Below are positions 24,866 through 60,417 of a stretch of DNA of 64,000 bases, in pieces. Below the pieces are notes generated by a model. The model saw only the letters and a list, made by a program, of their open reading frames with translations, did no database searches and was not told the DNA's origin. The position numbers were made by a program, and so were the translations under genes. The stretch comes from Rhodovarius crocodyli (GTDB taxonomy: Bacteria > Pseudomonadota > Alphaproteobacteria > Acetobacterales > Acetobacteraceae), in contig NZ_SACL01000011.1 in NCBI RefSeq assembly GCF_004005855.1, positions 1 through 64,000 on the forward strand, in the 5' to 3' direction. Position 1 is the stretch's first letter; the number at the start of each line of letters is the position of its first letter.

Positions 24866-25246
24866 TCAGAACAGGCGCATGGCCTGCGCGGCCGCGGCGC
24901 GTATCGGCGCCAGCAGGGGCAGCAGGTGCGGGGCCAGATAGGTGAGCATGGCGGTGCCGATCGCCAACAGCACGGTCAGAATGCGGCGCAGCAGCTTATC
25001 CTGGGCGGTCAGCCGCTCGTCTATCTTGTCGTCCCAGTCCTTGAACTGCTTCTGCATCAGCCGCCAGCGATAGCCCGCCATCTCGACATGGATGGCCAGG
25101 TCGCTCTTTTCCTGTTCGAGCACGGCACGCTCATGGTCGGTCATGGGTGATTCGCTGCTCGGCAGGTCTGGATCGATGGCACGCGCGTCATGCACCAGCT
25201 TTAGGGTCACGACGCCCCGGGCGGGATGCCGCAGCGCCGCGGCCAT
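24866..25246 (-). CDS. Holin-like / XhlA-like membrane protein
   Basis: 126 residues from ATG 25246, which overlaps the collar-fibre stop by one base; ATG 25144 would give a 92-residue form. A coiled coil (AVLEQEKSDLAIHVEMAGYR, QFKDWDDKIDERLTAQDKLL) is followed by one strong membrane helix (ILTVLLAIGTAMLTYLAPHL). This coiled-coil plus C-terminal membrane helix resembles XhlA-type holin partners. The place directly after the tail fibres suits a lysis role. No endolysin gene is visible beside it. Confidence 0.62.
   Translation of the reverse strand: MAAALRHPARGVVTLKLVHDARAIDPDLPSSESPMTDHERAVLEQEKSDLAIHVEMAGYRWRLMQKQFKDWDDKIDERLTAQDKLLRRILTVLLAIGTAMLTYLAPHLLPLLAPIRAAAAQAMRLF
25206..25215 (-). 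promoter_or_regulatory. Boundary-element copy inside the holin-like gene
   Basis: GGCGTCGTGAC (core 25213-25206) lies 30 bp inside the longer form of the holin-like gene and about 60 bp upstream of its second possible start (25144). If functional, it would favour the shorter protein. Confidence 0.4.
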
Positions 25247-27138
25247 CACAGCTTCACCATGACGTTGAGGGCGATCGAGGGCTGGACGTTGGGGTGTGCC
25301 TCGTTCCCGCCGGCGGCGGCGATGGTGTGCCTGTGCGCTGGGGCCGCGCTGACCGTCGCCGTGTGGGCGTGCACCCCGCCGACAGAGACGGTGATGGAGT
25401 GGGTGTGCGCGCCGGCGTTGCCCAGGGTGATCTGATGGGCGTGCTTCCCGGCGGTGCTGGTGCGCGACCACTGATAGACATCGTAGTAGATGCCGCTGAC
25501 CGGGCTATAGTTCCAGTTGCGCGGCCCAATCAGGATGCCACCGCCGTGCATGTCATACATGCCCTCATGGCCATCGGTGTGCCAATGGTCGCCGTCCTGG
25601 CTGCAGGCTGCCGAGTGCACATGGGTGCCGGCGCTGCCGGTGGAAGCGTCGTGCGCATGCCCGCCGCCTTCCGAAACGGTGACGGTGTGGTCATGGGCGC
25701 CGGCGGCTCCTGTCTCGGCCCCGTGGTCGTGCTGCGGCATCTGGGCGTAGGTCAGCACATGGGTTTCGGTGCCGAAGGTGCTGCCCAGAGCGCGCGCGGT
25801 CAGGCCGGTGCCCTGCCCTGCCCCCACCACCGCGCGGCCGCGCATGTCGGGGAGGGTGATGCGCTTGCCGGCGGTGAAGTCGGCTGCCGCGCTGGCGCCG
25901 CGCCCGCCCACCACCGGGGCCTGGGCATCGGCCAGGTTGTTCCAGAGCAGAGTGAAGAGGTCGGCCGTATCCGCGTTGGCTCGGGCCGTGCCGCTGGAAG
26001 CGGCGTTGCCGATGGTGCCGCCGGTCAGCATCAGCCAGCCGGGATCCGCCGCGGCCTTCAGGGTTAGCTTGGTGTCGCCGGTGGTGTAGACCGCCTGCCC
26101 GGCCAGCAGGGCACGCACCCATTCGGTGGTGACGAGCTCGGTGTTGTTGGCCGAGGGGCTGGGGGTAACGGCGGTGCTGGTGCCGCGCAGCGCCACGCCT
26201 TCCAGCTCGGTCGGGCTGCCCGCCACGCTGCTGCCATCGGTCCAGATGAGGCGGCTGCGGCCGCTGGTGACGGCCACGCCCCCGCTCTGGCCGGCGGTTC
26301 GCACGGTGACGGTCTGGGTGCTGCCGTTCAGCAGGATCCAGTCGGCGGCTTCGCCCGGCAGGATGAGCGTGGTGGCGGCGCCAGGCGAGCCCGTCAGGGA
26401 GATGATGGGCCCGGTCAGTGCGGTATCAGCCGGGGTGATCGTGCCGCCGGCGGACACGTCGATCTCGGCGCGCCCCCTGCCCCACTGCCGCGCGAAGGCG
26501 GTGGTGGCGAGCTGGGTGGTGGCGGTGCCGGCCGGCGCCGTAGGCGCGGTAGGGGTGCCGGTCAGAGAGAGATTCCGGGCCTCGGTGGTGGTCGGCAGCA
26601 TGTCGGTGCCGTCGCACCAAACCTGCTGGGATTTTCCCTGAGCCAGCAGCACACCGCCACCGCCTGCCGCGCGGAAGGTGACGGTGAAGCCGCCCGTGGT
26701 GCGGTTGGTGACGGTCCAGCGCCCATTGGCAGCCGGCACGCTTACGGTTGCGTCGCCCGTGAGGTTGCCTGTCAGGATGATGGCGCTCTTGCCGGCCTCG
26801 ATCGCCGTCAGCGCGGTGTTGCCTGCGGCGATATTCTTCGTGGTCTGCCCGCGGATCAGACCCTGCACCCATTCGGTGGTGGCCAGGCGGCGCGTGCTGT
26901 CGCCGTCCGCCGGCGTGACCGCCATGGCCGAGCCGGTGAAGTCCGGGCTGTTCAGCGGAGCCTTGGTCGGCAGCGCCTCTTCCAGCGTATCCACATGAGC
27001 CTTGAGGTAGGCGGTGCGGTTGGCCAGGTTCAGGAGCGGCGTGTTCGACGGGCCTTCCGGGCCGCCCAGCACCGGGGTGGTGGTTTCAAGCTGGAAGACG
27101 CCGGGCGCCCAGACGGCAGTTTCGGTCAGGTTGCTCAT
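25246..27138 (-). CDS. Tail fibre with tail-collar domain
   Basis: 630 residues. The N-terminus (LTETAVWAPGVFQLETTTPV) is shared with the neighbouring fibre and probably attaches to the baseplate. The middle has repeated T..LATT.W/F modules (about residues 85, 215, 335). Residues about 360-470 are a tail-collar domain (ITLPDMRGRAVVGAGQGTGL). A His/Gly-rich C-terminus follows (HDHGAETGAAGAHDHTVTVS). Host-recognition fibre of the late region. Confidence 0.88.
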   Translation of the reverse strand: MSNLTETAVWAPGVFQLETTTPVLGGPEGPSNTPLLNLANRTAYLKAHVDTLEEALPTKAPLNSPDFTGSAMAVTPADGDSTRRLATTEWVQGLIRGQTTKNIAAGNTALTAIEAGKSAIILTGNLTGDATVSVPAANGRWTVTNRTTGGFTVTFRAAGGGGVLLAQGKSQQVWCDGTDMLPTTTEARNLSLTGTPTAPTAPAGTATTQLATTAFARQWGRGRAEIDVSAGGTITPADTALTGPIISLTGSPGAATTLILPGEAADWILLNGSTQTVTVRTAGQSGGVAVTSGRSRLIWTDGSSVAGSPTELEGVALRGTSTAVTPSPSANNTELVTTEWVRALLAGQAVYTTGDTKLTLKAAADPGWLMLTGGTIGNAASSGTARANADTADLFTLLWNNLADAQAPVVGGRGASAAADFTAGKRITLPDMRGRAVVGAGQGTGLTARALGSTFGTETHVLTYAQMPQHDHGAETGAAGAHDHTVTVSEGGGHAHDASTGSAGTHVHSAACSQDGDHWHTDGHEGMYDMHGGGILIGPRNWNYSPVSGIYYDVYQWSRTSTAGKHAHQITLGNAGAHTHSITVSVGGVHAHTATVSAAPAHRHTIAAAGGNEAHPNVQPSIALNVMVKL

Positions 27139-29682: not shown

Positions 29683-30138
29683 TCAGTTGTAGGTGATGGT
29701 CCAGGTGCCGCTGAAGCTGAGATCCGAGGCCTTGACCAAGGCGCCCGTGCGCACCCGCCGCGCGAACAGCGTGTCGTTGTTGCAGATCAGCCCGAACTCG
29801 ATGATCGAGAGGCCATTGCCCTCGCCGGTGCCCAGCGTGAAGGCGAACTGCACGCTGTTCCACGCGGGATAGGTCACGCCCGACAGGGCCTTCTTGAAGG
29901 CGTTGGTCAGGCCGGAATTGCTGGCGTCAGCCGCGCCACTGCCTTCGCCGAAGCCGATTTGCGTGATCGAGCGGCCGACGACATCCCCGCCGATCAGCCG
30001 GGCCTGCTGCGTCCGCGCGCCGTTGACGATGATGTTGGGATGGTCATCCACCTCCACCAGCACGCCGCGGCGCCGCACTTCGAGGCGGAAATGGCCACGC
30101 GGGCCAGGAACGGGTTCGGAGAGGGCAAGGCTCGTCAT
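29683..30138 (-). CDS. Tail fibre-associated structural protein
   Basis: 151 residues. HPNIIVNGARTQQARLIGGD, ITQIGFGEGSGAADASNSGL and SIIEFGLICNNDTLFARR are beta-rich blocks seen in small proteins encoded beside myovirus tail fibres. The start ATG 30138 has no clear ribosome site; instead a GTCGTGAC element and a hairpin lie directly upstream. First gene of the fibre unit. Confidence 0.7.
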   Translation of the reverse strand: MTSLALSEPVPGPRGHFRLEVRRRGVLVEVDDHPNIIVNGARTQQARLIGGDVVGRSITQIGFGEGSGAADASNSGLTNAFKKALSGVTYPAWNSVQFAFTLGTGEGNGLSIIEFGLICNNDTLFARRVRTGALVKASDLSFSGTWTITYN

Positions 30139-30162
30139 GCCGGCAGGGTGCCGTCACGACAT
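30139..30162 (-). promoter_or_regulatory. Late boundary element (GTCGTGAC plus hairpin) before the fibre unit
   Basis: The motif GTCGTGAC occupies 30160-30153, exactly 14 nt before ATG 30138. It is followed at once by a 5-bp stem with 3-nt loop (CGGCA-CCC-TGCCG) ending 2 nt before the start. Same layout as at 34275 and 60374, with compensatory stem changes. Confidence 0.65.
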
Positions 30163-32422: not shown

Positions 32423-33058
32423 TCAGGCCTCCGCGCTGATGGTGGTGACGGCGGCGGAGCCGATGGGGGTCACGCTGGCCTCGATCGGGGCGCGGTGGCC
32501 GGCGGCGCTGACCACGACACGACCGACCTCCTGCACGCGGGGATCCTGCAGAAGGGCCCGGCGCACCGCGCGGCCGGCCAGCGCGGCGCCGGTTGGGCCG
32601 TTCACTGAGCCGATGATGGAGCGCACCGCGCACCCGTAGCTGGGATGGAAGGGCAGCTCGCCGAGCTCGATGCTCAGGCGGCGAGCGAGCGAGGCCTTGA
32701 AGTTTTCCATCCCGCTGACCGTGCCATAGTCGCCGTTCTCGACGGTCAGGCGGCCGGCCACCAGCGCCAGATCGGTCAGGAACACCTCTTCCGGGTCGGT
32801 CTGCGCGTCGGCTGTGGCGCTGGCAGCGAACACCCGGATGGAGGCGCCGTAGGCCAGCACCCGCCCGCCGCTCGCCGTCACCTCGGCCGGATCGCCCGAC
32901 AGGTATGGCGGCACCAGGTCGTTCAGGCTGGCCAGGTCCGCCCAGCGCGAGGCGCTGCCCAGGTGGCGCAGAGCAAGCGCCTGCAGGGTGTCGCCGTGGC
33001 GGATGGCCACGAAGCGCCAACCGGCGGCATAGCGGGTGGTGGAATAGCTCCCGCTCAT
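32423..33058 (-). CDS. Baseplate protein fusing a LysM-like domain to a gpW/gp25 domain
   Basis: 211 residues from ATG 33058. Residues about 12-50 (FVAIRHGDTLQALALRHLGS, WADLASLNDL) look like a LysM-type domain as in gp53-like baseplate proteins. Residues about 120-200 (GELPFHPSYGCAVRSIIGSV then LLQDPRVQEVGRVVV) are the gp25 wedge initiator. In many phages these are separate genes. Overlaps the upstream gene by 4 bp. Confidence 0.82.
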   Translation of the reverse strand: MSGSYSTTRYAAGWRFVAIRHGDTLQALALRHLGSASRWADLASLNDLVPPYLSGDPAEVTASGGRVLAYGASIRVFAASATADAQTDPEEVFLTDLALVAGRLTVENGDYGTVSGMENFKASLARRLSIELGELPFHPSYGCAVRSIIGSVNGPTGAALAGRAVRRALLQDPRVQEVGRVVVSAAGHRAPIEASVTPIGSAAVTTISAEA

Positions 33059-34275
33059 GCTGCCTCGCTGGCGATGCTCGCCCCGTCCTGCACATCGGTA
33101 AGGGCGTCTTCGAGCTGGTTGTCGTTCAGCGGGTGCAGCACCGGATCCGAACTGGCGAGGGTGATGATGCCGGCGCGAGCGGCAGGGCTCAGCGAGATCC
33201 CGAGCGTCGAAGCCTCTGGGTTGGAGAGGCTTTCCCAGGCGCTGCTGGTGGTGAAGATGCTGGCCGGCCGGCCACCGCTGATGGAGGAACAGCCGGAGGC
33301 CCCGTAGAACCCGGCATAATCCCCATAGGCCAGGCGCGTGGAGCGGGCGCGAAGCAGCCAGCACAGCAGGTTGCTGAAGGCGCTGGCGGTGGCCATGACA
33401 TCGTTCCTGATGGCCATGGGGAGGCTGACCACGGCGCCGATGGTGTGGAAGAGGTTCACCCCTGCCTGCGCCAGCATGGTCGGCACCGCCAGAACGGACG
33501 CCACCAGGTTGCGCACGCTGCGCACCACGCCCACCACCGCGGTGAACACCCGGTTCGCGAGGTTCAAGAAGTTGCGCACGGGCGCGATGAGGTTGGTCTG
33601 CACCCATGCGCTGGCGCGTGTGATCGCGGATCGCACCGCGCTGATGGACTGCACCACGGAGCTGAAGAAGCCGCCCTCCTCGCCTGGCGTCTTCGTGGCG
33701 TCGCCGCCCTGCAGGAACTGGATCTGCCCGGCGTTCTGGTCCACCACGGTCAGGTTGAGCTGATACTGGATCAGCAGCGGCCGCGACTTCGAGCGGCGGA
33801 GCGTCAGCGTCATCGGCGCCACCTCCACCACGAAATCCGACAGGGCATCGGTGTAGATCAGCTTGACGGTGGAGGGGTCGCGGCCCTCCTGGACGGCCTG
33901 CTTGCGCAAGCTCGCCCAGCGGTTCCACACCTGGTCGCGAAGCGCCACCCACCGCTCTTCGCCGTTGCCGTCGCTGCCGCCGCGCCAGCCGGTGTGGCCT
34001 GCGATGTTGATGACGGGCAGCCCCTGACCGAAGCTATCCACGAAGGCGCCGCCGAGCGTGTGGTGCACGGTGGTGCGCATCTGGTCGGTGCGGGTCATAT
34101 CCTCGGGCCGCAGGCCCAGGGTCACGCTGCTGACGATCGCGCCATTGTCTTCAAGGGTGAAGCCGATGGGGCGGTTCTTCTGCGAAGGCGGTGGGCCGGC
34201 ATAGCCAAGCGCACCGGAGACCGCCCCGATGGCGCTGCTTACGCTATTGGCCGCATCTGAGAGGGATCCCGACAT
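33055..34275 (-). CDS. Baseplate/tail structural protein
   Basis: 406 residues. The N-terminal half (LEDNGAIVSSVTLGLRPEDM, TVHHTLGGAFVDSFGQGLP, WASLRKQAVQEGRDPSTVKL) is a beta-rich baseplate or tail-tip type domain. The central part carries amphipathic helices (AVVGVVRSVRNLVASVLAVP), and the C-terminus a small domain ending LNDNQLEDALTDVQDG. It sits between the tape measure/hub genes and gp25/J, consistent with a baseplate component. Start at 34275, 14 nt after a GTCGTGAC element. Confidence 0.7.
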   Translation of the reverse strand: MSGSLSDAANSVSSAIGAVSGALGYAGPPPSQKNRPIGFTLEDNGAIVSSVTLGLRPEDMTRTDQMRTTVHHTLGGAFVDSFGQGLPVINIAGHTGWRGGSDGNGEERWVALRDQVWNRWASLRKQAVQEGRDPSTVKLIYTDALSDFVVEVAPMTLTLRRSKSRPLLIQYQLNLTVVDQNAGQIQFLQGGDATKTPGEEGGFFSSVVQSISAVRSAITRASAWVQTNLIAPVRNFLNLANRVFTAVVGVVRSVRNLVASVLAVPTMLAQAGVNLFHTIGAVVSLPMAIRNDVMATASAFSNLLCWLLRARSTRLAYGDYAGFYGASGCSSISGGRPASIFTTSSAWESLSNPEASTLGISLSPAARAGIITLASSDPVLHPLNDNQLEDALTDVQDGASIASEAA

Positions 34276-34625
34276 ACCGCCAGGGTGGCGTCACGACGCG
34301 CCAGGGGGTTCACCCCAGCAGGGATCGGGCTCTGCCGCCGCCCGCGGCTGGCGGCTATGAAGGCTTCCAGGTCGCGGGCAGTCGCGTGGAAGGTGGCGAG
34401 CTCGACATCTGAGAGCCCCGTGGATTCCTGGTCCAGGCCTTCAAGCGCGCGGCGGAACCGTGCGGCGATGCCCTGGACGGTGGTGGCCGGGGTCTCCACG
34501 ATCCGGCATTCCAGCTCTATCAGCTCGTCGGCACTCAGGTGCGGTGCCCCTTCGGCTTGCTCTTGGTCCATGGCAAGCAGCGCGAGAACCGGATCTGCAA
34601 CGCAGTCGGCGGCGGTCAGGCTCAT
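34239..34625 (-). CDS. Small phage protein of unknown function
   Basis: 128 residues from ATG 34625 (MSLTAADCVADPVLALLAMD). Helical; contains LSADELIELECRIVETPATT and VELATFHATARDLEAFIAAS. Longer starts up to 34712 are possible. The 3' end overlaps the start of the baseplate gene. Function unknown. Confidence 0.65.
   Translation of the reverse strand: MSLTAADCVADPVLALLAMDQEQAEGAPHLSADELIELECRIVETPATTVQGIAARFRRALEGLDQESTGLSDVELATFHATARDLEAFIAASRGRRQSPIPAGVNPLARRDATLAVCRDPSQMRPIA
34276..34299 (-). promoter_or_regulatory. Late boundary element before the baseplate unit
   Basis: GCGTCGTGAC with its core at 34297-34290 is 14 nt before ATG 34275. It is followed by the stem CGCCA-CCC-TGGCG. It lies inside the 3' part of the upstream gene 34239-34625, so it constrains that gene's codons. 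Confidence 0.65.
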
Positions 34626-50399: not shown

Positions 50400-51284
50400 T
50401 TACTCCTTCGCGTTGTTGGACGGGGAGGCGGTGCCGGGAAGGCTCGCCAGAAAGCGCTCGGTCCACTCGGCCGCCTCGTCGGGATCGAGGCCGAGCTGTT
50501 CGCCGTGCGAGCTGATGGCGCGGGCGTTCATGGCGAGACCGCCCTTGCGGATCTCGCGCGCCGCGCGGTTACGAAAATCGAAGTAGGAGGAGACGCCGCG
50601 ATCGAGGCTCTGCTTGACCAGGGCCGCGCTACCGGAAAGGCTGGCTGCGTCGCTACCTGCGCCCGCCATGGTCAGCGCCTTGGTCAGATCCAGCCCGTCC
50701 ACCCCCCAGCTCTTCGCGAGCACGCCGTAGGGCACCGTGCTGACGGTCGGCACCGACAGGTTCACGGGGGTCTTCGAGAGGCCGATGTTCACCCACCGCG
50801 TCCGCGTCACCACCGTGCGGCGGTTGCCTTGGGCGTCGATCTCGTTGGAGCGTTCCAGAACGGCGCCACCCACGCTCGGATACCAGCGCTGCGGCGGGTT
50901 GAGCCGAGTGAGGCTGTCCCAAACCAGGTTGGCGTTGATCGCGGTGGGGCCCGTGCCGGTGAAGAGCTCGCCCTTCACCATCACGCGGCTGCGCTCGGCC
51001 TTCACATCCACCGGCCGGCCAATCTCGTAGAGGGCGTAGTCGGCGGGCCCGCGGCGCGGCCCGGTGACGGTCACATGGTCCAGGTCCAGGTTGCCGTATC
51101 GCAGATAGTATTCAGCGCTGGCGGACAGGGCCCGGGCCAGGATCACCTCGCCCTGGTAGTCCACGCTCTCATTGCTGGCCTCGATATAAAGGTAGCGTCG
51201 GCCGCTCTCCTCGGCCGGGCGCGCCTTCAGCATCCCGCCAATCGACAGGAACTCGCAGGCCTCAGCGGCGGCAGCGTCGAACAT
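50400..51284 (-). CDS. Prohead protease-like protein
   Basis: 294 residues from ATG 51284, chosen for GAGGGGG 5 nt upstream (a TTG at 51305 is possible). ESGRRYLYIEASNESVDYQG, NLDLDHVTVTGPRRG, GRPVDVKAERSRVMVKGELF and RWYPSVGGAVL follow the prohead serine-protease fold, with His in LDHVT and Ser in PSVGG as candidate catalytic residues. The C-terminal 90 residues are a separate helical part. It would mature scaffold and capsid. Confidence 0.78.
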   Translation of the reverse strand: MFDAAAAEACEFLSIGGMLKARPAEESGRRYLYIEASNESVDYQGEVILARALSASAEYYLRYGNLDLDHVTVTGPRRGPADYALYEIGRPVDVKAERSRVMVKGELFTGTGPTAINANLVWDSLTRLNPPQRWYPSVGGAVLERSNEIDAQGNRRTVVTRTRWVNIGLSKTPVNLSVPTVSTVPYGVLAKSWGVDGLDLTKALTMAGAGSDAASLSGSAALVKQSLDRGVSSYFDFRNRAAREIRKGGLAMNARAISSHGEQLGLDPDEAAEWTERFLASLPGTASPSNNAKE

Positions 51285-51305
51285 GAACCCCCTCGAAAAC
51301 GACAA

Positions 51306-51349: not shown

Positions 51350-51404
51350 CATGGAAAAGCCCTTGACTGGCGCCTGGCGGGCGCCGCGATGCGATTAGCC
51401 TGCC

Positions 51405-51414
51405 GTCACGACGC
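51405..51414 (-). promoter_or_regulatory. Late boundary element overlapping the Acb1 stop
   Basis: GCGTCGTGAC (core 51412-51405) overlaps the stop codon of the Acb1-like gene, which ends GCG-TCG-TGA. It lies 120 nt before the protease start, with the terminator-like hairpin between. Confidence 0.55.
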
Positions 51415-51918
51415 GCGGGGGGCGAACACCAGAAGCCGTGGCGGCAGGGCCAGCGGCGTCTCGACGTGCTCCTTGTTCGCGCTCTCCCGGACCTCCTGGA
51501 AGCGTTCAGGTCCTAGGATCAGCGGGCCGGCGTAGGGCTGCATCTGCTCGGGCGGCGTCGGCCAGCCACCAGGTGGCGCGCGATAGCTGACGGTCACATG
51601 CGGGTGGTAGCTGTCGTGATCCCAGCTCGCCCCAGCCTGCCGGAAGCGGCGCCAGCGCTGTTCGAGCGCCGAGGAGTGGAAGCGCAGCACCACAGCCTTG
51701 CCCAACTCCATCACCTTGGTGCTGCGGTCGGGCGGGAGCTGCAACGCGAGCTGGTCGGTGGCGGGAGGCACCTTGTGCCAGTCCACCGCCTCCTTGGAGA
51801 AGGCGACGGTGACGTGCATGTCGTCTGCCGGCAGCGCAGTGCTGAAGCCGGCCACGCGCGCCCAGGCGCGTATCGCGGCGGCATTTAGCACCGGGCGGCA
51901 GACATACAGGCTGCGCAT
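51406..51918 (-). CDS. acb1: Acb1-like anti-CBASS 2H phosphodiesterase
   Basis: 170 residues from ATG 51918. It begins LYVCRPVLNAAAIRAWARVA, then LPADDMHVTVAFSKEAVDWH, AVVLRFHSSALEQRWRRFRQ, ASWDHDSYHPHVTVSYRAPP and YAGPLILGPERFQEV. The paired H-V-T-V motifs are the catalytic His-x-Thr tetrapeptides of 2H phosphoesterases, and the framework matches Acb1, which degrades cyclic oligonucleotide signals to block CBASS immunity. It is co-translated with a membrane protein (ATGA). Substrate range here is unproven. Confidence 0.82.
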   Translation of the reverse strand: MRSLYVCRPVLNAAAIRAWARVAGFSTALPADDMHVTVAFSKEAVDWHKVPPATDQLALQLPPDRSTKVMELGKAVVLRFHSSALEQRWRRFRQAGASWDHDSYHPHVTVSYRAPPGGWPTPPEQMQPYAGPLILGPERFQEVRESANKEHVETPLALPPRLLVFAPRAS

Positions 51919-52403
51919 CAGGCTGCCGCGATGCCGCCGGCGATCGCGGCGCCGAAGACGCATTCAGCGCTCTCGACGGGGTATCGGTCGGTGATCTGCC
52001 AGCAGATGGCGTAGATCACGCCACAGGTGCCGCCGACCAGCAGCAGCCAGGTGCCGTCGCCCGTGCCAGTCAGCACGAACAGCAGCGCCGCCGGGCCCGT
52101 CCAGATGAAGCCCCGGAGCGTGTGCCAGGCGATATCACCCCAAAGGGTGCCGTGCTGCCGGCCCATGTCCAGGGATCCCCACCAGGGGGCGAGGGCGCCG
52201 ACATAGAGGGCGAGCGCGAGCTGAGGCGCGAAGATCAGGGGGATGCCGGCGAGCGGCACAGCCGCGAAGGCAACGCTCGTGGCCCACATGATGCGGGCGG
52301 TGGTGGCGCCGCGGCCGGCCAGCCGCTCGAATGTCTGGGATCCGCGGAGGCGGAAGGTCGCGGCGCCGAGCGCGAGGAGGATCAGGATGAAAAGGAATTG
52401 CAT
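51918..52403 (-). CDS. Small polytopic membrane protein, partner of the Acb1-like gene
   Basis: 161 residues from ATG 52403; ATG 52430 is an in-frame alternative nine codons upstream. About four membrane helices: FLFILILLALGAATF, MWATSVAFAAVPLAGIPLIF with ALALYVGALAPW, IWTGPAALLFVLTGT and WLLLVGGTCGVIYAICW. Its stop overlaps the Acb1-like start. It could be a membrane-associated counter-defence partner or holin-like, both inference. A start-codon hairpin covers its translation start. Confidence 0.72.
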   Translation of the reverse strand: MQFLFILILLALGAATFRLRGSQTFERLAGRGATTARIMWATSVAFAAVPLAGIPLIFAPQLALALYVGALAPWWGSLDMGRQHGTLWGDIAWHTLRGFIWTGPAALLFVLTGTGDGTWLLLVGGTCGVIYAICWQITDRYPVESAECVFGAAIAGGIAAA

Positions 52404-52456
52404 GGGAAGCTCCGGGGTGGAGCCTCCCATGCTGTTGTCACGACGCCGTTAAACGG
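52401..52456 (-). promoter_or_regulatory. Late boundary element and start-codon hairpin of the Acb1 unit
   Basis: The GGCGTCGTGAC core is at 52444-52437, abutting CCGTT-T-AACGG upstream. Downstream, CATGGGAGGCTCC (52431-52419) pairs with GGAGCTTCCCATG (52413-52401) at 12 of 13 positions. Both possible start codons and the GGAG ribosome site lie inside the stem, so translation should need unfolding. Confidence 0.65.
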
Positions 52457-53735
52457 GGTCGGTCGCGCCCTTGGCGGCCCAGATACCCTGGTGGACGATC
52501 ATGTTCGCGGCGCTCGCCCAGCGCGGATTGGTCGCACCATAGTCCCAGTTGTTCGCATGCATATTGACGAACGCCCAGTGGGCGTTGGGGCTGTTGTTCT
52601 CGAAGGCATACCAGGTGCCGCCCCAGCCCAGGCAGTTCATGCCCATGCGATCGCCGGAGAGGGTCTGGATGTCCACGCGATGGCCGCTGCCGCCGAAGCC
52701 GACCCAGCCGACCGGGCACATCTCGCCATGCAGGTGGTTGATGACGAAGTAGCAGCTCGAACCCTCGGCGAGGTGGATCGGGTAGCCCCAGGTGAAGCGA
52801 GCGCCGACTTCCTCGCCGACTTCACGGATCGGCTTCTCCGCCTGGTGCTTCATCTCGTGGATGTTCACCGTCGCGTTGGTCTGCGTGCAGTGGATGCCCA
52901 GCATGCTCAGGTCCGAGAAGAAGTGCTTGATCGTGAGATCGCGCACCGGGGCGGACCCACCGGCGGCCAGGACCACGCCGATCTGATAGCCGAAGGTGAA
53001 CAGGCTCTCGATGACCAGGCCATCGGCGCGATACAGCACGATGCCGCGGCCGCTCTGCTGACGGTACTTCTTCGTGTCGTAGGTCGGCGTGCCCGGGCCG
53101 GGGCGCGTGGCATCCGCCTCGCTCTTGTCGTAGCCGTAGTTGAACGGCCAGAAGTGGATGCGACCCATGTGGATCACGTCCATCGCTTCCTCGACCTGGA
53201 TGCCGGTCAGCATCGGATCGCCGAAGATGGCGTCCAGGTGCGAACGGCCGGCCTTGTAGAGGCGGATGCCCTGGGCCAGGCGATGCAGGCCCACGTTGAA
53301 GACGGTGATCATGCCGTTCAGCGGGCTGACCGTATCGGTGTCGATGGCGAATGCCATCATGCCGCTGGTCGGCACATTGCCCATGGACTCATCGCCGATC
53401 TGGCCGTCGATGATGAGATCGGTCACGCCGCCGCCGCGGGCATTCTCGGTGCTGAACAGGAACACCGGCTGCGCGCCGTTATAGAGGATGCGCGTGCCGC
53501 CCGGGGCGCCCACCCATTCCCGGCGGCCAGCGCCCTGGAACGTCACCGGCTTGGTCACGGTGATCGTGGTGTTCATGAAGTGCTCGCCGGCGGGCAGGAT
53601 CACGCGGCCGCCGCTGGCGGGAAGGGCGGCGACAGCCAGCGCTACAGCGCCGGAGATATCGGTGTAATCGACGCCAGGGTGAGCAACGGTGACGGTGGGC
53701 AGCTTGATTGCGGTATCGGGCACGAAGGGCTCCAT
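52449..53735 (-). CDS. Pectate-lyase-like beta-helix protein (tailspike- or decoration-like)
   Basis: 428 residues from ATG 53735. PGVDYTDISGAVALAVAALP, GGRVILPAGEHFMNTTITVT, FQGAGRREWVGAPGGTRILY, GVTDLIIDGQIGD and many following strands form a right-handed parallel beta-helix of the pectate-lyase superfamily. Such proteins are usually tailspikes that bind or cleave host glycans. It is unusual that the gene sits in the head module, away from the fibres, with its own boundary element. Confidence 0.75.
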   Translation of the reverse strand: MEPFVPDTAIKLPTVTVAHPGVDYTDISGAVALAVAALPASGGRVILPAGEHFMNTTITVTKPVTFQGAGRREWVGAPGGTRILYNGAQPVFLFSTENARGGGVTDLIIDGQIGDESMGNVPTSGMMAFAIDTDTVSPLNGMITVFNVGLHRLAQGIRLYKAGRSHLDAIFGDPMLTGIQVEEAMDVIHMGRIHFWPFNYGYDKSEADATRPGPGTPTYDTKKYRQQSGRGIVLYRADGLVIESLFTFGYQIGVVLAAGGSAPVRDLTIKHFFSDLSMLGIHCTQTNATVNIHEMKHQAEKPIREVGEEVGARFTWGYPIHLAEGSSCYFVINHLHGEMCPVGWVGFGGSGHRVDIQTLSGDRMGMNCLGWGGTWYAFENNSPNAHWAFVNMHANNWDYGATNPRWASAANMIVHQGIWAAKGATDPV

Positions 53736-53769
53736 GGTTGGTGGAGCCCCTAAACTTTCGTCACGACGC
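53727..53769 (-). promoter_or_regulatory. Late boundary element and start-codon hairpin of the beta-helix gene
   Basis: The GCGTCGTGAC core at 53767-53760 overlaps the previous gene's stop and lies 24 nt before ATG 53735. GGGCTCC (53749-53743) pairs perfectly with GGAGCCC (53733-53727), placing the start codon at the loop/stem junction. Loop and stem share CTCCACC with the Acb1 unit hairpin. Confidence 0.62.
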
Positions 53770-54156: not shown

Positions 54157-54394
54157 GGGCGCTGCCTTCCGCCGGTGATGCTGCCCGCGCTCGTGGGGCG
54201 TTCCCTTTGAAGACCAGGAGGAGGCGCGCGCTGAGCGCCTTGGCCAGTTCCCCCTCGACCGGCACGTCGCCCTTGCACTTCGGGCAGATCATGGACACGC
54301 CCTCTGCCTTCAGCAGGATGCCCCGGCTACGGATCAGCGGCTCGCCGGTGGCGGAGATCTGGCCGAGGTTCGCAGCGCAATGCCGGCACTTCAT
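54149..54394 (-). CDS. Com-like zinc-finger protein
   Basis: 81 residues. KCRHCAANLG at the N-terminus and MICPKCKGDVPV at about 35-46 give the CxxC...CPxC arrangement of Mu Com, an RNA-binding translational activator that opens a hairpin at the mom start. The spacing between the two Cys pairs is longer than in Mu Com. No mom-like gene is seen; nearby start-codon hairpins are candidate targets (inference). Confidence 0.66.
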   Translation of the reverse strand: MKCRHCAANLGQISATGEPLIRSRGILLKAEGVSMICPKCKGDVPVEGELAKALSARLLLVFKGNAPRARAASPAEGSAHE

Positions 54395-54681
54395 GGCGAG
54401 GCCTCGTCGGCGCTGCCGAGGAGGGTGTTCGCGCGGTCGATCACATTGAGGAGGCGGGCGCGCTCGCTGGTCAGGGCCAGATAGGCGTCGCCGGCGCCGT
54501 CATGGAGGATGGCGCGCGGGCGAGCCTTGGCCAGATCTTCATCGACCACGGCCAGGCGCTTCATGGCCGCATCGCGGATCTTCCGTTCGGCTTCGTCGGT
54601 GCTGCTGTCCAGCGCGGCCAGGTGGCCCAGGCGCCGGCGTGCGGCGGCCATGTGCTGGTCAGGGGATGGGGCGCGTTCCAT
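54391..54681 (-). CDS. Small helical phage protein, unknown
   Basis: 96 residues (MERAPSPDQHMAAARRRLGH...). Coiled-coil character throughout (EAERKIRDAAMKRLAVVDED, RARLLNVIDRANTLLG). First of three overlapping genes. Start 14 nt after a GTCGTGAC element, with AGGG directly before ATG. Confidence 0.68.
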   Translation of the reverse strand: MERAPSPDQHMAAARRRLGHLAALDSSTDEAERKIRDAAMKRLAVVDEDLAKARPRAILHDGAGDAYLALTSERARLLNVIDRANTLLGSADEASP

Positions 54682-54731
54682 CCCTATGTTGTGCTGTCAC
54701 GACGCGCCCTCGGCTCATCCGCCGGGGCGCG
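54682..54731 (-). promoter_or_regulatory. Late boundary element before the Com-like unit
   Basis: GCGTCGTGAC, core 54703-54696, 14 nt before ATG 54681. It abuts an 11-bp upstream hairpin (CGCGCCC-CGGC/GCCG-GGGCGCG with one bulge, 54731-54703). The downstream leader AGCACAACATAGGG does not fold like the other copies. Confidence 0.62.
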
Positions 54732-55007: not shown

Positions 55008-58000
55008 TCAGAAGAGCGCACCTTGCCCCACATCCGCCGGTTCGGCATGAGCCCGCCTGCCCTCCTCCGGTGGCCTGACGCCTTCACCCCGCACTGGATG
55101 CCGCGACGCCTCAGGAAGGTCAGGGTCTCGGCCAGCCCTGATCCGATGCAGCATCCCCGCCAGGCCCGTGTCGTCCAGCCCGTCCAGGGGCGAGGTAACG
55201 ATGCTGCGGAGCTCGTATTTCCGTGCCAGGCGGTCACGGTTCCTCCGCTCGGCCGGGTGATTGGCCACCAGGTCCAGCAGCTCCACATCCTCGGTCTGGC
55301 CAACGCGGTCGATGCGGCCATTGCGCTGGGCGTGCACCATGGCGGTCTGTGGCGTGTCGAACTGCGCCAGCCATTTGCCCTTCTGCAGGTTGGCCCCCAC
55401 CGCACCAGCATCCGAAACAACCAGCACGTCATGGTCGCCGCGCTGGAAGGCGCGCTTGATGCCGTCCTTCTCTTTGGAGGAATTGCCGCCGGTCATCGTG
55501 CTGACGCGCAGGCCCTGCCCTTTTAGCCGCTCGCTGAGATCCTGCACCCGGTCCAGGTGATGGCAGAACACAATGCCCGGCTTTCCCTTCCTGGCCGTCG
55601 CCTGCTGCACCAGGGCGTCCATCTTGCCCCGCCCGTCGATGGCGTGGCGAATGGCACTGTCACGCACCACGCCGATGGCGTTCTGCAGCCGCCGCGCCAC
55701 CTCGCCGTGCTGATCGGCCGGAACGCCGGCAAAGCTGTTGGGGGAGAGCACCTTCATGGCGGCGATGTCGGTGCGGCCCTCCATCCGGGCGATCCGCGCG
55801 GCGCCGGCGGCGCGGTTCACTGCCTCGATCCGGGCGTGATCGTCGGCGTGCAGCTCCACCGGCACTTCCTTCTTGTGGGCGGCCACGCCGGAGGAGATGG
55901 AGCTGGTGTAGTAGTGGCGCGCCATCTCGCGGCGCAGCCCGTCCTTCGCGGATTCCGTGTCCACGCCATACCGCCGCATGAAGGCGTCCCGGTCGCTGTA
56001 GCGCTCGGGATCCATCTTCGCGAGGGTGTCGAACACCTCGCTGGCATCGTTCTTTACCGGGTCGGCGGTCATGTTCACATAGGTGCCCATGCCATGCGCC
56101 ACGCCGTCGATGACGTGCGCCATGCCGCTGTCTTCCTTGCCACGGCGGTTCAGCAGGTTGTGGCCCTCATCCACGGCCAGATAGTCGTGGTCGATGCCCT
56201 CCTTGTGCAGCACCTCCTTGATGAAGCTGGCGCGCTCCATCGGTTTCATGCCGGCCAGCCGGGCCTTGATGGCATCGGGCGTGGTGCCGTGCTGCTGGGA
56301 TGCCAAGTGCAGCACGTCATCCCGAAAGGCCTGGTGCGTGACCACGTTGAAGTGCTTGCTCGGATCCTTCAGAGCGGCGATCCGCTCCTCGCGCGACGCG
56401 CCCGGGTTGGCGTGCCAGTCGTATTTGCCGGGCTCCAGCATGGCCAGAGCTTCGCCGTGGAACTGCCCCTGCACCACGCTCGGCACCACCATAAGGCCAC
56501 GCTTCGCCTTGCCCTGGTCGTGCAGGTGGGTGAAGGCGGCCAGGCTGATGCTCGTCTTCCCGCTGCCAACGCCCATGCCCAGCATAGTCCGGCGATTGCG
56601 GGCGATCAGCTTCACCGCGCGCTGTCGCGCCACGAACTTGCCGTCCATCGTCGGTGCGAAGATCCCGACCGGCTGGCCGGGCTTGAAGTTGCCGCCGATT
56701 CGGCGGGCCATGCCGGCCAGGGTTCGCTCGGCCGCGTGGCCGATGGTGTGGCGCTCGCCCGTCCCCATGGGGGCGGTATTCTCCGGCAGAGCATCGTCGG
56801 TGGTGGCCGCCGCGGGCTCGTCGCCGAACAGGCCCATCTGGCTTTGCGCCGCTGCCTCCTCCGCCTCTCGCGCGGCCGCCATCTTGTCGCTGACCGAGCC
56901 GGAGGCGTAGCGGCCGGCGGTGCGTTCCCGCAGCCGGTCCACCAGGCCGCGGTGCTCGGCCAGGCGGCGCTCGCGTGCATCGGGATCCAGCGCGTCCAGA
57001 TGGTTCAGGTCGCCGGCGATGTTGGTCCGGCCCATGCGCAAGGGCGCGTCCGGGCGGAGCTGGTTGTGGATCTGGCCAAACTCGCCGACCACCCTGCCCT
57101 TCACCACGTCCTGCATGGCCAGATAGGCGGCCTGCGGGCTGCCCATGTGCTCGACATACCGAGGCCAGTTCATCTCGGCCGAGCTAGCAGCGGTGGCGGC
57201 CGCGTCGTGGTCGCGCTTCCAGTCGCCCCACAGCGGGTTCTCCTGGCGCCCGAACATGCCATCCGTCTCACGCTCCGGCTCCTCGGCCTTCAGCTTTTCC
57301 AGCGCCGTCCGCTTGTCCGCGGCCTGCGGATCGCTCGCGCCGAAGTCGCGGACGAACAGGGCGCGCAGCCCCGCCTGGTCCTGCGGTGTCAGCTCGCCCA
57401 CCGGCTTGAAGGCGGCCGCGCCCTCCGGGATCTTCGCGAGGGCGCGGTGAAGCGCCTCCACGCTGGTGCTGTCCTCGGCGAGGGGCTGCTTGGCGATGGT
57501 GGTGCGCCGCCCGCCATGGTTGCGATCGGTGAAAGCATCGGCCAGCCGGTCGAAGGCGCCGGCGTGGGCCTCCGCGCGGATCATCTTGCCGTCCGCCCCG
57601 TAGAGCGGCGCCACTTCGTTGACGGCGGCCATGAAGGCGCTGCGGTCGCCGGCGCGCTGGATCAGATCCTCGGACAGCAGCCCGGCCATGATATCCGCCG
57701 GGCTGTCGCCGTCCGCCGCGCGGCCGCCGATGTAGTCTCGGACGGCCTGGCCCACATCCGCCGGTGCGGTAGGGAAGGCCTTGGCCAGTCGCGGCGCGGC
57801 GCCGGCCGGCAGGTCGCTGCCGAAATCCGGGCGACGCGCCACGCCGGCAGGCAGCCAGCCGGCCTCGTCTTCATGGCCCTGCATGATGGACAGGGCGCCG
57901 TTCACCCGGTCCAGGTCAGCGGGGTCGATGGGTGCGGTCAGCTTGCCGATGGCGTCGCCGTGGATCACCAGCAGCGTGCTGCGGCCCGCGCGCTCCATGG

Positions 58001-60374
58001 TGTAGTCGCCCTTCTGCAGGCCAATCGCCCGCAAGCGAGTGATGGCGTCCGCCACCGGCAGATTGCCGAGGGAGACACTGATGCGGTCGCGCTTCGGCTT
58101 CTCCAGCGCCGTCACCAGCGCGGCGTTCGTCTCCATCTCCCCCAGGGCCTGGGCCAGGATGGCCTTGCTGCGGCCGACCAGCTCGCGCCGGCGGGCGTTC
58201 AGCTCCTGCGCCACCGCCAAGTCATGGCCGGTGGCGGCCTCGCCAAGCTGGATCTCGCTGGCCTGTTCCTGAAGCTCCCGGGCCTCAGTCAGCGCATCGG
58301 TGCTGGTGGCCATGTAGTGCTGGACGTGGAAGCGGCTCATCGCCTCCCGGACATGGCCCAGCTCGTCGCTGGTCAGATCTCCGGCCAGCCGGTGAGCCAG
58401 CGCCTGGGCTGCGGCCTCGGGCCCCAGCACGTCCACCACGCTGCGATCCATCAGCGGCGCGCCGCCGGCGGCCAGCGCCAGGCTGTTCAGGGAGTTGAAC
58501 GCCCCCACGCTGACGTGCTTCGTCATGCCGGTGGCGCCAGCTTTCTCGGCCTCGTCCAGGAATCCGCGGGTGCGGATGGTGCGGAGCTCGTCTTCCACCC
58601 CGCGCATCACCGCTTCATCCACGGCCTTGCCGTCCACCTCTATGACGAAGGCGTTGGGCTCGATAGCGCCGGCGTCCGCCGCCTTGTCGATGTCGCGCGT
58701 GCGCTCTCGCACCTGCTTCAGCTTCTCGCGCATCTCGCGCTCAGCGCGCAGCAGTGCCATGGCTTGCTTCGCGGTGGCCCGGCCCTTGGGGTCGATGCTC
58801 GGCCCGATCGGCTCTCGCACCCGATTCAGCGCCTTCGCGGTGCCTTCGGCTATTGCCGGCGCACCACGCTCTTCCTGCTGCGCGGGGGTGGTGCTGGAAG
58901 TGGCGTCACCGGCGCCATCATCAGCCTGCGAGGCCGGCTTTTCCTCAGTTTCTGGCTTTGTAGGGGTGGTGCTGTCCACTCGCTGCGGCGGTGGCGGCGC
59001 CGTATCGAGGGCAGGTTGTTCCTGCTCCTCTGCGACCTTAGCCGACCGGCCTTTGACCTCTGAGGCCTCGGCCTTGATCTGCGCGGCGTCTCCGCCGCCC
59101 GCCGCCGCACGCTCGGCGTATTTCGGCTGGAAGCCCAGCCCTTTGCCGCCGTCGCTCTCAACCGGATCCAGATCCGCCACGCTGATCTGTGCAGGGTCGG
59201 CTGGCGCGGACAGCGGCACGGCGGACATGCCGCCCTCGGCACGCATATCGGCATCGGCCAGCAGCCGCTGGCGCTGCGTGTTCACCGCATCCTTCGCCGC
59301 GGCGAACAGCTCCTGGAAATGCGCGTCTTGCAGCTTCGCTACCTCAGACGGGGCCTTGTCCTGGTGCTCCTCCTCCTTGAACCGCACATCTTCGGGCTTC
59401 CAGTCCAGCACCTTGGCCACCTGGCGCACGAAATCATCCTGCGCGGCGCGCCCGGCCAGGCGGAGGTTGTCCTTCGCCTGCTTCTTCATGCCGGCGGTGC
59501 CGGCCTCCCGATCGCGCGCGGCCTGCTGCCGCTTCTCGTCACGCCGCGCGGCTGCCCCCTCCTTCGCGCGCTGGGCATACTCGGCCTCGCTGCGCACCCC
59601 GGTCAGCTTCAGGTAGTTGAGCTTGCCTCCGGCGCCGCCGATCACGCGATAGGCGCCATCGCCGGCGGGCTGGATCATCACCGCGTGCCCCTCAGTGCCC
59701 GGGCCGTTAGGGCGCACGGTGATCCAGCGCGCGCCGGTGGGCAGCGCCTTCGTCATCCGGCCTTCCAAGAGATCCTTGAAGATCGTTCGGAGCGTGGCTA
59801 TGTCTACCGGACGCCGGGCGAGATGCACCGGGGTAGAACCGGTGGGTTGAGCGCGGCCATGTTCTCCACCGATTTCGTCCGGCGATTCCAGCAACCCAAC
59901 TAAATCGTGGTGGTAGTGCAAGTGCCCGGCGCCGTCCTGGCGGACGCGCAGTAGCGCTGCATAGTCGCGGGTGCCAATGGATAGAGGCGCCGCCAGGGTG
60001 TGCCACAGGTTCTTGCTGGTTTCGTCGTAGCGGTCGCCTTCGGTCGAGAGGTGAACCGCGTGGCGCAATAGATCTGGCAGGCCCGCAACTGATGCCGCTA
60101 TCTCGGTATAAGTGTGCCCCTTAAGCGCGTGTCGCAGGCCGTTACCCGAAATCCCTATGCGGGCGCCAAGATGCGCGTTGTGCACCGAGAGCATGGTTGG
60201 GCCGTGTGGGCCGTGGCCGGTGACGAAGTGGCGACGTGCGTATTCCAGCGCGTTGGTTCGCAGCTCTTTCGGCGTATCCCCCGAGATTTCATCGCCACGA
60301 AGGGAAGTCCAGTGGGCAAAGCGCCCGCGCGCATCGTGCTGGGGATTGCTCTTCAGGAACAGGATAGGGCACAT
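55008..60374 (-). CDS. Polyvalent protein: LPD3-like domain plus SNF2-type helicase (DarB-like)
   Basis: 1,788 residues. The N-terminus (QHDARGRFAHW, then about 60-165 with IGISGNGLRHALKGHTYTEI and GHLHYHHDLVGLLE) is a large-polyvalent-protein domain (LPD3/PBECR type). About 165-1150 is long helical/linker sequence. The helicase follows: Walker A GMGVGSGKTSI about 1270, DEGH about 1400, and QRNGRIDRVGQ about 1683. Polyvalent proteins are injected with phage DNA to protect it, as P1 DarB does. It precedes head genes, consistent with packaging in the capsid. Confidence 0.85.
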   Translation of the reverse strand: MCPILFLKSNPQHDARGRFAHWTSLRGDEISGDTPKELRTNALEYARRHFVTGHGPHGPTMLSVHNAHLGARIGISGNGLRHALKGHTYTEIAASVAGLPDLLRHAVHLSTEGDRYDETSKNLWHTLAAPLSIGTRDYAALLRVRQDGAGHLHYHHDLVGLLESPDEIGGEHGRAQPTGSTPVHLARRPVDIATLRTIFKDLLEGRMTKALPTGARWITVRPNGPGTEGHAVMIQPAGDGAYRVIGGAGGKLNYLKLTGVRSEAEYAQRAKEGAAARRDEKRQQAARDREAGTAGMKKQAKDNLRLAGRAAQDDFVRQVAKVLDWKPEDVRFKEEEHQDKAPSEVAKLQDAHFQELFAAAKDAVNTQRQRLLADADMRAEGGMSAVPLSAPADPAQISVADLDPVESDGGKGLGFQPKYAERAAAGGGDAAQIKAEASEVKGRSAKVAEEQEQPALDTAPPPPQRVDSTTPTKPETEEKPASQADDGAGDATSSTTPAQQEERGAPAIAEGTAKALNRVREPIGPSIDPKGRATAKQAMALLRAEREMREKLKQVRERTRDIDKAADAGAIEPNAFVIEVDGKAVDEAVMRGVEDELRTIRTRGFLDEAEKAGATGMTKHVSVGAFNSLNSLALAAGGAPLMDRSVVDVLGPEAAAQALAHRLAGDLTSDELGHVREAMSRFHVQHYMATSTDALTEARELQEQASEIQLGEAATGHDLAVAQELNARRRELVGRSKAILAQALGEMETNAALVTALEKPKRDRISVSLGNLPVADAITRLRAIGLQKGDYTMERAGRSTLLVIHGDAIGKLTAPIDPADLDRVNGALSIMQGHEDEAGWLPAGVARRPDFGSDLPAGAAPRLAKAFPTAPADVGQAVRDYIGGRAADGDSPADIMAGLLSEDLIQRAGDRSAFMAAVNEVAPLYGADGKMIRAEAHAGAFDRLADAFTDRNHGGRRTTIAKQPLAEDSTSVEALHRALAKIPEGAAAFKPVGELTPQDQAGLRALFVRDFGASDPQAADKRTALEKLKAEEPERETDGMFGRQENPLWGDWKRDHDAAATAASSAEMNWPRYVEHMGSPQAAYLAMQDVVKGRVVGEFGQIHNQLRPDAPLRMGRTNIAGDLNHLDALDPDARERRLAEHRGLVDRLRERTAGRYASGSVSDKMAAAREAEEAAAQSQMGLFGDEPAAATTDDALPENTAPMGTGERHTIGHAAERTLAGMARRIGGNFKPGQPVGIFAPTMDGKFVARQRAVKLIARNRRTMLGMGVGSGKTSISLAAFTHLHDQGKAKRGLMVVPSVVQGQFHGEALAMLEPGKYDWHANPGASREERIAALKDPSKHFNVVTHQAFRDDVLHLASQQHGTTPDAIKARLAGMKPMERASFIKEVLHKEGIDHDYLAVDEGHNLLNRRGKEDSGMAHVIDGVAHGMGTYVNMTADPVKNDASEVFDTLAKMDPERYSDRDAFMRRYGVDTESAKDGLRREMARHYYTSSISSGVAAHKKEVPVELHADDHARIEAVNRAAGAARIARMEGRTDIAAMKVLSPNSFAGVPADQHGEVARRLQNAIGVVRDSAIRHAIDGRGKMDALVQQATARKGKPGIVFCHHLDRVQDLSERLKGQGLRVSTMTGGNSSKEKDGIKRAFQRGDHDVLVVSDAGAVGANLQKGKWLAQFDTPQTAMVHAQRNGRIDRVGQTEDVELLDLVANHPAERRNRDRLARKYELRSIVTSPLDGLDDTGLAGMLHRIRAGRDPDLPEASRHPVRGEGVRPPEEGRRAHAEPADVGQGALF

Positions 60375-60417
60375 AACCGCACTGTGCGGTCACGACGCGG
60401 GCCAGGCGCTGGCCCGC
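60375..60417 (-). promoter_or_regulatory. Late boundary element before the polyvalent protein
   Basis: The GCGTCGTGAC core at 60396-60389 is 14 nt before ATG 60374. It abuts a perfect 9-bp hairpin upstream (GCGGGCCAG-CGC-CTGGCCCGC, 60417-60397) and is followed by CCGCA-CAG-TGCGG. The start has no classical ribosome site. Confidence 0.68.

Follow-up and report, generated by a model that had tools for sequence, protein, structure and literature searches.

Why does one short DNA word recur along a single strand of a prophage, close to the start of one gene after another? The question is raised by a stretch of 64,000 nucleotides (nt) of Rhodovarius crocodyli (contig NZ_SACL01000011.1, positions 1 to 64,000; hereafter the window), in which an earlier sequence-only reading had pointed to ten minus-strand copies of a 10-mer. 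The repeated element proved to be real, although the conserved part has to be shortened to a core, (G/A/C)TCGTGA(C/T/G), and a second half had been missed. In its full form the element reads GTCGTGAC-N2-(C/T)ANNNT, where the second half resembles a sigma70 -10 box and lies at a fixed spacing from the core. Of the roles first suggested for it, that of a phage-specific late promoter or activator site has the best support, and we consider the element to be very probably the late promoter of a family of large phages (about 86-96 kilobases, kb), judging from its build, placement and distribution.

The contig of the window, designated G000:C2 in our genome set, carries a prophage that extends past the end of the window. 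Among its minus-strand genes in the window are those for a major head protein, the tail sheath, the baseplate J protein and other virion proteins of a myovirus. Homologs of the portal and terminase of Bordetella phage PHB04 follow past the window at G000:C2 76933-78693 and 78709-80754, and after the terminase homolog comes an endolysin-like gene, recognized by eye, at 83696-84556. The same prophage is recorded in IMG/VR as IMGVR_UViG_2882837327_000001 (85,906 bases), whose coordinates agree with G000:C2 1-85906. Judged by the head protein (42-49% identity), the closest named phages are Bordetella PHB04, Pseudomonas Dolphis, Jeremy and Touem01, Aeromonas ST4, Morganella Mecenats66, Yersinia fHe-Yen8-01 (Yen8-01 below) and Enterobacter phiT5282EW. 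The head protein was matched in 5 of 299 genomes of the host family, the window's own among them, and contigs from the host-family genomes G244, G226 and G143 were taken into the comparison. A scan of viral contigs with the capsid protein matched this prophage alone, and one scan of genome contigs with the same protein gave no match.

In the window, the core GTCGTGAC occurs 11 times on the minus (late) strand and 0 times on the plus strand; these copies comprise the ten that had been listed and the in-gene copy at 44160. In 100 dinucleotide shuffles of the window the word appeared on average 1.67 times on both strands together and 5 times at most, and 0 of the 100 shuffles reached 11. Ten of the 11 copies lie at late-gene junctions, where nine had been counted before, and some of these, such as those at 51405 and 53760, overlap with the 3' end of the frame before them. 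The distances of 14 nt to start codons at 30138, 34275, 54681 and 60374 are as originally reported, as are those of 17, 24, 33 and 44 nt. Past the window, further copies at G000:C2 72960, 78715 and 84578, each 14 nt before a start codon, precede a gene for a protein of 2034 amino acids (aa) at 66834-72938, the portal gene and the endolysin-like gene.

The sequence-only reading had seen no resemblance to a sigma70 promoter and had overlooked the -10-like (C/T)ANNNT that begins two bases after the core. Counted from a predicted transcription start, the core occupies -22 to -15 and the box -12 to -7, with two free bases between them. An A at -11 and a T at -7 are the best-conserved positions of -10 boxes. 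At the junction copies in the window, the A is present in 10 of 10 and the T in 8 of 10, being absent at 25213 and 54703, while the in-gene copy at 44160 has neither and is probably a chance match. A pool of 163 distinct copies was assembled from relatives, with identical site neighbourhoods removed and with Mecenats66 and two Thermus phages, Lalka8 and phiMa, omitted. Here the A occurs in 139 copies, the T in 139 and both in 129. For comparison, 300 permuted words included the real core itself (both bases in 136 of 170 copies), and the other 299 served as the control, in which A and T stood together in only 326 of 10,180 copies (3%).

The spacing is equally strict. A further set consisted of contigs selected by their gene for a 173-aa zinc protein discussed below, reduced from 79 to 56 by removal of redundancy before counting. 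In the 36 of these that bear the core, 38 forward elements have a spacer of 2 and at most 3 have any other spacer from 0 to 7. Variation at the ends of the core is likewise oriented: the last C is replaced by T in 31 forward versus 4 reverse cases, by G in 13 versus 0 and by A in 6 versus 1, and the first G by A in 16 versus 2 and by C in 10 versus 0. Nine copies in the window extend to GCGTCGTGAC, as had been noted, and those at 30160 and 44160 do not. This GC extension is local to the phage of the window and is not part of the element as first supposed, since in the 163-site pool no base before the core rises above the reporting limit of 0.18 bit in a profile reaching 40 nt upstream. A -35 box about 17 nt upstream of the -10 box, the other hallmark of a sigma70 promoter, was not detected (mean match to TTGACA of 2.22, versus 2.25 at random positions).

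Among all 8-mers in the 56 nonredundant contigs, GTCGTGAC is the most strand-asymmetric, with 76 copies on one strand versus 10 on the other. Late-strand and other-strand counts are 11:0 in PHB04, 10:1 in Dolphis, 8:0 in Touem01, 4:1 in Jeremy, 4:0 in Yen8-01, 3:0 in phiT5282EW and 1:0 in ST4, as well as 14:1 in G244 and 7:1 in G226; Mecenats66 has 0 copies. The counts for Touem01, Jeremy, Yen8-01, phiT5282EW, ST4 and Mecenats66 cover only about 50 kb with the late genes. In Mecenats66, core variants such as GTCGTGAT or TCGTGAT can be seen by eye before an AT-rich -10 box. In the host genome of 5.27 megabases the bipartite pattern occurs 9 times, 8 of them inside the prophage, and a reversed control occurs once. 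Two pattern scans of viral contigs were compared by the surroundings of the matches listed, not by totals. With the full leaderless form of the promoter, 84 of 120 stretches among the matches listed code for one or more of the 19 core proteins chosen for the family, compared with 1 of 120 among the matches listed for the reversed core; a match to any protein of the window or of PHB04 was found in 89 versus 8 (120 matches listed each).

The sequence-only reading had called for a search of homologous junctions in related phages, and the outcome was positive: phages of five bacterial genera have the element at the same junctions. A table of orthologs was compiled, allowing one core mismatch and with starts estimated from BLAST matches. 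By this measure the element lies 14-17 nt before the start of gene 43954-44799 in 11 of 11 motif-bearing genomes, and near the estimated start of the protease in 10 of 11 (the exception is G244), the window being included in both counts. Orthologs of gene 54391-54681 in G244 and G143 also have the element upstream. None was found at the estimated starts of the orthologs of the head protein, the sheath and several other genes. The helicase orthologs likewise have none at the estimated start, yet the element is visible there by eye in G244, G143 and PHB04.

One gene provides a natural experiment. Gene 44838-45728 (minus strand) lies on the late strand in G244, G226 and G143, and uninverted in Thermus phages too, and is inverted in the eight named phages. 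The inverted gene has its own element on the opposite strand in 4 of these 8 phages when the rule of one core mismatch is applied. Inspection by eye raises this to 7 of 8, with two mismatches in the copies of ST4, Yen8-01 and phiT5282EW; Mecenats66 lacks a copy. The element is therefore tied to the direction of transcription. Lalka8 and phiMa have head and sheath genes in common with the family; no bipartite element was found in the stretches of these two phages that were examined, and neither zinc protein was found at the search sensitivity used.

The distance from core to start codon falls into two classes. Among the 129 copies with both A and T, an ATG is found 14 nt after the core in 42, 15 nt after it in 12 and 13 nt after it in 4. 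A frame of 60 codons or more is present within 110 nt of 121 copies, and in 48 of these the first such frame opens 12-17 nt downstream of the core. With the predicted +1 counted from the conserved bases at -11 and -7, a distance of 14 nt places it on the A of the ATG. Messages of this 14-nt class are therefore likely to be leaderless, as is predicted for all sites with a start at 12-17 nt, although we infer both the start site and the leaderless state from DNA sequence.

Part of the other sites are associated with hairpins. RNA beginning at the -10 box folds with z < -2.5 at 30% of 81 nonleaderless sites, compared with 3% of 400 nearby stretches and 4% of the leaderless class, and in 17 of the 81 the best loop lies 0 to +10 from the predicted start. 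The best hairpin in the window (52400-52432) includes the start codon within its 3' arm. In a subset of sites, the DNA of the predicted promoter also specifies the 5' arm of a start-codon hairpin, an arrangement seen in phage T4 and considered below. Such nesting also involves terminators. Before the holin gene of PHB04 and its homologs in Yen8-01, phiT5282EW and Mecenats66, the putative promoter lies inside an intrinsic terminator, with the core GTCGTGAC in PHB04, GTCGTGAT in both Yen8-01 and phiT5282EW, and GTAGTGAT in Mecenats66. The U-run of this terminator meets the ATG in three phages and ends 11 nt upstream of it in PHB04. Yen8-01 and phiT5282EW have the terminator stem in common, and the stems of PHB04 and Mecenats66 differ. 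Mecenats66 also carries AT-rich -10-like boxes at or in intrinsic terminators immediately before the start codons of the terminase gene and several late genes. It lacks the exact core, and the nesting may have arisen before that core did. From these structures we infer that hairpins could mask start codons and so gate expression.

If the core is the site of a phage-made factor, which protein might bind it? Homologs of 22 of the 124 PHB04 genes are present (E<=0.01) in all of G000 (first 90 kb), G244, G226, G143 and Dolphis, and 21 of these are virion or packaging genes by annotation, homology or position in the structural block. The sole apparently nonvirion gene common to the six phages is PHB04 61034-61555, which encodes the 173-aa protein, with eight cysteines conserved in 11 sequences. 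This protein is found in 9 of 50,697 phage records, namely PHB04 (twice) and seven other named relatives, and the gene that follows it encodes a zinc ribbon of about 95 aa found in the same 9 of the 50,697. By cysteine pattern, the two genes adjoin in 41 of 47 viral contigs. The prophage of the window has its pair on the minus strand past the window, with a 214-aa member of the 173-aa family at G000:C2 82366-83010 and a 90-aa protein at 82116-82388. In 8 phages, the 500 nt upstream of the 173-aa gene contain no exact core. The homolog of the 95-aa protein is labelled "DNA repair helicase" in Dolphis, Jeremy and ST4, a label that looks wrong for a small zinc ribbon.

Database searches gave few leads to the function of this pair. 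AlphaFold models of the 173-aa and 95-aa proteins are confident, with predicted local distance difference test (pLDDT) scores of 87.7 and 90.1. The best fold match of the 95-aa model is the RNA polymerase II subunit RPB9, at an E value of 0.71. Searches of PDB sequences, Pfam, NCBIfam, PHROGs and Foldseek with the 173-aa family gave a single significant match, to a short unnamed viral protein (E 3.3e-7). Across 47 members of the 173-aa family, the matches (E<=0.5) cover 24 Pfam families and include none of Ogr type, and for the 95-aa family Ogr/Delta is not in the best 25 of 45 Pfam families matched.

Other candidates were considered as well. The AraC-type regulators of PHB04, Dolphis and ST4 were dropped because, among the sequences compared, only Dolphis and ST4 have homologs of the PHB04 gene; the sequences of Touem01, Jeremy, Yen8-01, phiT5282EW and Mecenats66 were partial in this comparison. 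A TraR/DksA-like protein is present only in PHB04, Dolphis, Jeremy and Touem01. In a search for a phage sigma factor, Sigma70_r2 (PF04542) was matched in 0 of 8 phage records, with the control matched in 11 of 14; gp55 itself was not searched for. Single-subunit RNA polymerase (PF00940) was also matched in 0 of 8 phage records, but the control genomes were silent as well.

We propose that host RNA polymerase carrying the housekeeping sigma factor would open the -10 box only once a phage-made factor binds the core, where that factor would replace the missing -35 contact. The likeliest factor would be the adjacent pair of the 173-aa zinc protein and the zinc-ribbon protein, and we regard their role as activator of the promoter as about evenly balanced. 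In the largest class of sites, transcription would start on the A of the ATG and yield a leaderless mRNA. At some of the remaining sites, the -10 box and discriminator would also form the 5' arm of a hairpin, with the 3' arm or the U-run positioned at the start codon. Transcripts entering from upstream would then either terminate or carry a masked start codon, and RNA begun at the nested promoter would lack most of the 5' arm.

Several findings weigh against this account. To our knowledge no transcript starts have been mapped in these phages. The A or the T is missing in 34 of the 163 pooled copies, and the strand bias is not absolute, with 19 versus 7 copies in G143 and with both A and T present in 9 of 21 reverse-strand copies. 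When stems were counted more crudely, the excess of hairpins shrank (19 of 225 forward, 9 of 408 random and 2 of 29 reverse sites). Nor is the tie to the zinc proteins a strict one. In G244, which was not among the 8 phages with no exact core near the 173-aa gene, a core without a fitting -10 box lies about 45 nt upstream of that gene. The 173-aa protein was matched in 11 of the 299 host-family genomes, only 4 of which also match the capsid, and 7 do not. The four stronger matches among these 7 were examined. Even with a relaxed core, 0 bipartite elements were found in the 80 kb of G175 and the 44 kb of G231 (to the contig end) that were examined around the gene, and 12 kb of G270 contain one core with A and no T; the 4.8-kb stretch of G177 is too short to judge. 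The zinc ribbon adjoins the 173-aa gene in G231, G177 and G270 and has no match in G175. The loci in question (G175:C1 956506-956937 and G231:C26 461877-462606) have one or two tail-gene homologs nearby and no capsid match, and may be remnants or relatives with another promoter site. The idea that the 173-aa gene and the element always go together, one to one, is rejected because G175 and G231 have the gene and not the element. Furthermore, 20 of the 56 contigs with the gene have no exact forward core in the stretch examined, some of them having variants. The link is one of co-inheritance within a single lineage. Neither zinc protein has a PDB fold match at E<=0.001 or matches a known transcription factor in the libraries searched, the Yersinia homolog of the 95-aa protein is annotated as particle associated, and one of the 21 common virion-type proteins may instead be the factor.

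Much of this also bears on an alternative in which the promoter has the same build and is served by a different phage factor, be it a divergent sigma, a DNA-binding protein or a virion protein, and the zinc proteins do something else. This is possible, though we find it somewhat doubtful. It would accommodate zinc proteins that match no known regulator, a 173-aa gene in G175 and G231 with the element not nearby, the particle annotation in Yersinia and the 21 other genes common to the compared genomes. It has to contend with the lack of Sigma70_r2 in the 8 records, with an AraC-type gene whose PHB04 version has homologs only in Dolphis and ST4 (several compared sequences being partial), and with the fact that, virion-type genes aside, the 173-aa gene alone is common to all six phages. 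The housekeeping sigma factor is conserved across alpha-, beta- and gammaproteobacteria, and phages of all three classes have the element, so a promoter variant read by the housekeeping RNA polymerase alone, with the core as an extra spacer contact to a sigma70-like -10 box, might come to mind. A promoter of this sort should also occur before host genes and be active in the lysogen, whereas the host genome has one copy outside the prophage, the same as for the reversed control. We therefore think this reading improbable.

Further removed is the view that the element acts in RNA, as a translation or processing signal in the 5' untranslated region of messages from distant promoters. The sequence-only reading had named such a signal among the possible roles, and the many copies near start codons and the downstream hairpins that contain a start codon would suit it. 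As a primary role it finds no support, because the fixed spacing runs to the -10-like box and the start codon lies at two classes of distance. The conserved bases are those best conserved in -10 boxes, the hairpins start within the box, and a tRNA is the only Rfam match in the window. We consider this view very unlikely. Hardly credible is a repeat or chance word with no regulatory role, for instance one that serves packaging or methylation. In its favour are the copy inside a gene at 44160 and the DNA methylases annotated in these phages, and against it stand the location at junctions, the 14-nt spacing, the coupled -10 half and the opposite-strand copy at the inverted gene. We thus return to the late promoter, and the full statement that joins it to a zinc-pair factor, leaderless starts and hairpin gating has in our judgement an even chance of being correct, a confidence lowered because the element is missing around the 173-aa genes of G175 and G231.

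Most single components of this scheme have precedent. According to two accounts of phage T4, its genes e, soc, 49 and I-TevI have a late promoter where the 5' arm of a hairpin is encoded, so that only the longer read-through RNA masks the start site, and this layout keeps early read-through RNA untranslated (PMC3014915, PMC2988022). The T4 late promoters consist of TATAAATA and are read with gp55 and gp33 (PMC3014915). As in that description, the predicted promoter DNA at a subset of sites in the present family also encodes the 5' arm of a hairpin. The differences are that here a YANNNT -10 box is joined to a separate GTCGTGAC core, in place of TATAAATA as the sole element, that many messages are predicted to be leaderless, and that some of the hairpins are intrinsic terminators.

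Late promoters of P2-like phages are activated by Ogr/Delta zinc proteins at sites of the form TGT-N12-ACA near -55. The proposed scheme resembles this in having a small phage zinc protein turn on late genes with host RNA polymerase; unlike P2, the site lies at -22 to -15, and no Ogr-type Pfam family is among the matches of the 173-aa family. TGT-N12-ACA was not searched for as such, and the profile of 40 nt before the core shows nothing above 0.18 bit. Actinobacteria and Deinococcus-Thermus have leaderless mRNAs with TANNNT 6 nt before the ATG. In the same manner, the -10 box here ends 6 nt before the ATG and the predicted +1 is its A, but the box is preceded by a core, and the hosts are proteobacteria. 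We know of no GTCGTGAC-type core in actinobacterial or Deinococcus-Thermus leaderless promoters. Lastly, GcrA, MerR and lambda Q act between -10 and -35, and like them the proposed factor would control sigma70 promoters from a DNA site in the spacer region. In contrast to those systems, the core contains no GANTC, no such protein family was matched and no -35 box was detected.

A literature search by titles and the beginnings of abstracts found no description of this element. The combination of a core at -22 to -15, a -10 box without a -35 box, leaderless starts and promoters nested in terminators was likewise not found in the literature searched, and the words "promoter" and "motif" occur 0 times in the available part of one article (PMC9503643). 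A bolder claim is that these phages redirect the host polymerase in a novel way, by means of a two-protein zinc activator without known relatives that would act at a -22 to -15 site in the spacer of -35-less promoters from alpha- to gammaproteobacteria, with late mRNA that would be largely leaderless and with the holin and some other genes insulated by a promoter within the terminator of the unit before them, from which no RNA but that started at this promoter would escape. We offer this only tentatively, as it falls somewhat short of an even chance.

The copies of the element in the window and the hairpins nested with them are given in Table 1.

Table 1. Predicted late promoters, cores and nested hairpins in the window
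Feature	Position	Strand	Remarks
Predicted late promoter	60381-60396	-	Core 60389-60396, -10-like box 60381-60386; ATG 14 nt after core, opening helicase-domain gene 55008-60374; message predicted leaderless
Core (54696-54703) with A at -11, no T at -7	54688-54703	-	ATG 14 nt after core; gene 54391-54681
Predicted late promoter	53752-53767	-	Start codon 24 nt after core; gene about 52449-53735
Predicted nested hairpin	53725-53751	-	Predicted +1 in 5' arm, ATG in loop/3' arm; z -3.2
Predicted late promoter	52429-52444	-	Start codon 33 nt after core; gene about 51918-52403
Predicted nested hairpin	52400-52432	-	5' arm formed by -10/discriminator, ATG in 3' arm; z -7.2, lowest of 129 folded
Predicted late promoter	51397-51412	-	Upstream of head maturation protease gene 50400-51305
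Predicted late promoter	47737-47752	-	Start codon 44 nt after core; gene 47458-47700
Predicted nested hairpin	47697-47740	-	ATG in 3' arm; z -3.9
Predicted late promoter	44809-44824	-	Start codon 17 nt after core; gene 43954-44799 (by its position, neck/tail completion)
Predicted late promoter	34282-34297	-	ATG 14 nt after core; structural gene 33055-34275
Predicted late promoter	30145-30160	-	ATG 14 nt after core; gene 29683-30138
Weaker copy	25198-25213	-	Core and A at -11, no T at -7
In-gene core without -10-like half	44153-44160	-	From alignment of copies; probably a chance match

The weaker copy at 25213 has an ATG 14 nt after the core that opens a short frame only, and it precedes a small frame resembling a membrane protein. 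Two giant late proteins have the core 14 nt before their start codons. The protein encoded by 55008-60374 has 1788 aa with LPD3 and helicase domains, and the 2034-aa protein encoded by G000:C2 66834-72938 is related to the "N-6 DNA methylase" of PHB04. An FkbM-type methyltransferase gene (60428-61390, minus strand) lies in a stretch of lower G+C content (0.593 for 60001-62000). It has no homolog in the compared relatives and is possibly a recent insertion. A tRNA-Ser is located at 851-940, near the left end of the IMG/VR prophage record. In one of the host-family contigs (G226:C372 1-40000), the word TGCATGCA is strongly enriched, with 13 copies versus 0.48 expected from base composition.

For this broad and little-studied phage family, the element supplies a sequence rule that finds predicted late promoters in isolates on Bordetella, Pseudomonas, Aeromonas, Yersinia and Enterobacter, in variant form on Morganella, and in prophage-type contigs of the window's host family. 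It also names two testable candidate regulators, which are without function in the family libraries searched. If the account is true, it would describe a late-promoter architecture that works across host classes and a large group of predicted leaderless mRNAs from phages of proteobacteria. It would likewise provide a second, unrelated case of the T4 promoter-in-hairpin trick, extended here to terminators before holin genes, where it would amount to a simple device for timing lysis.

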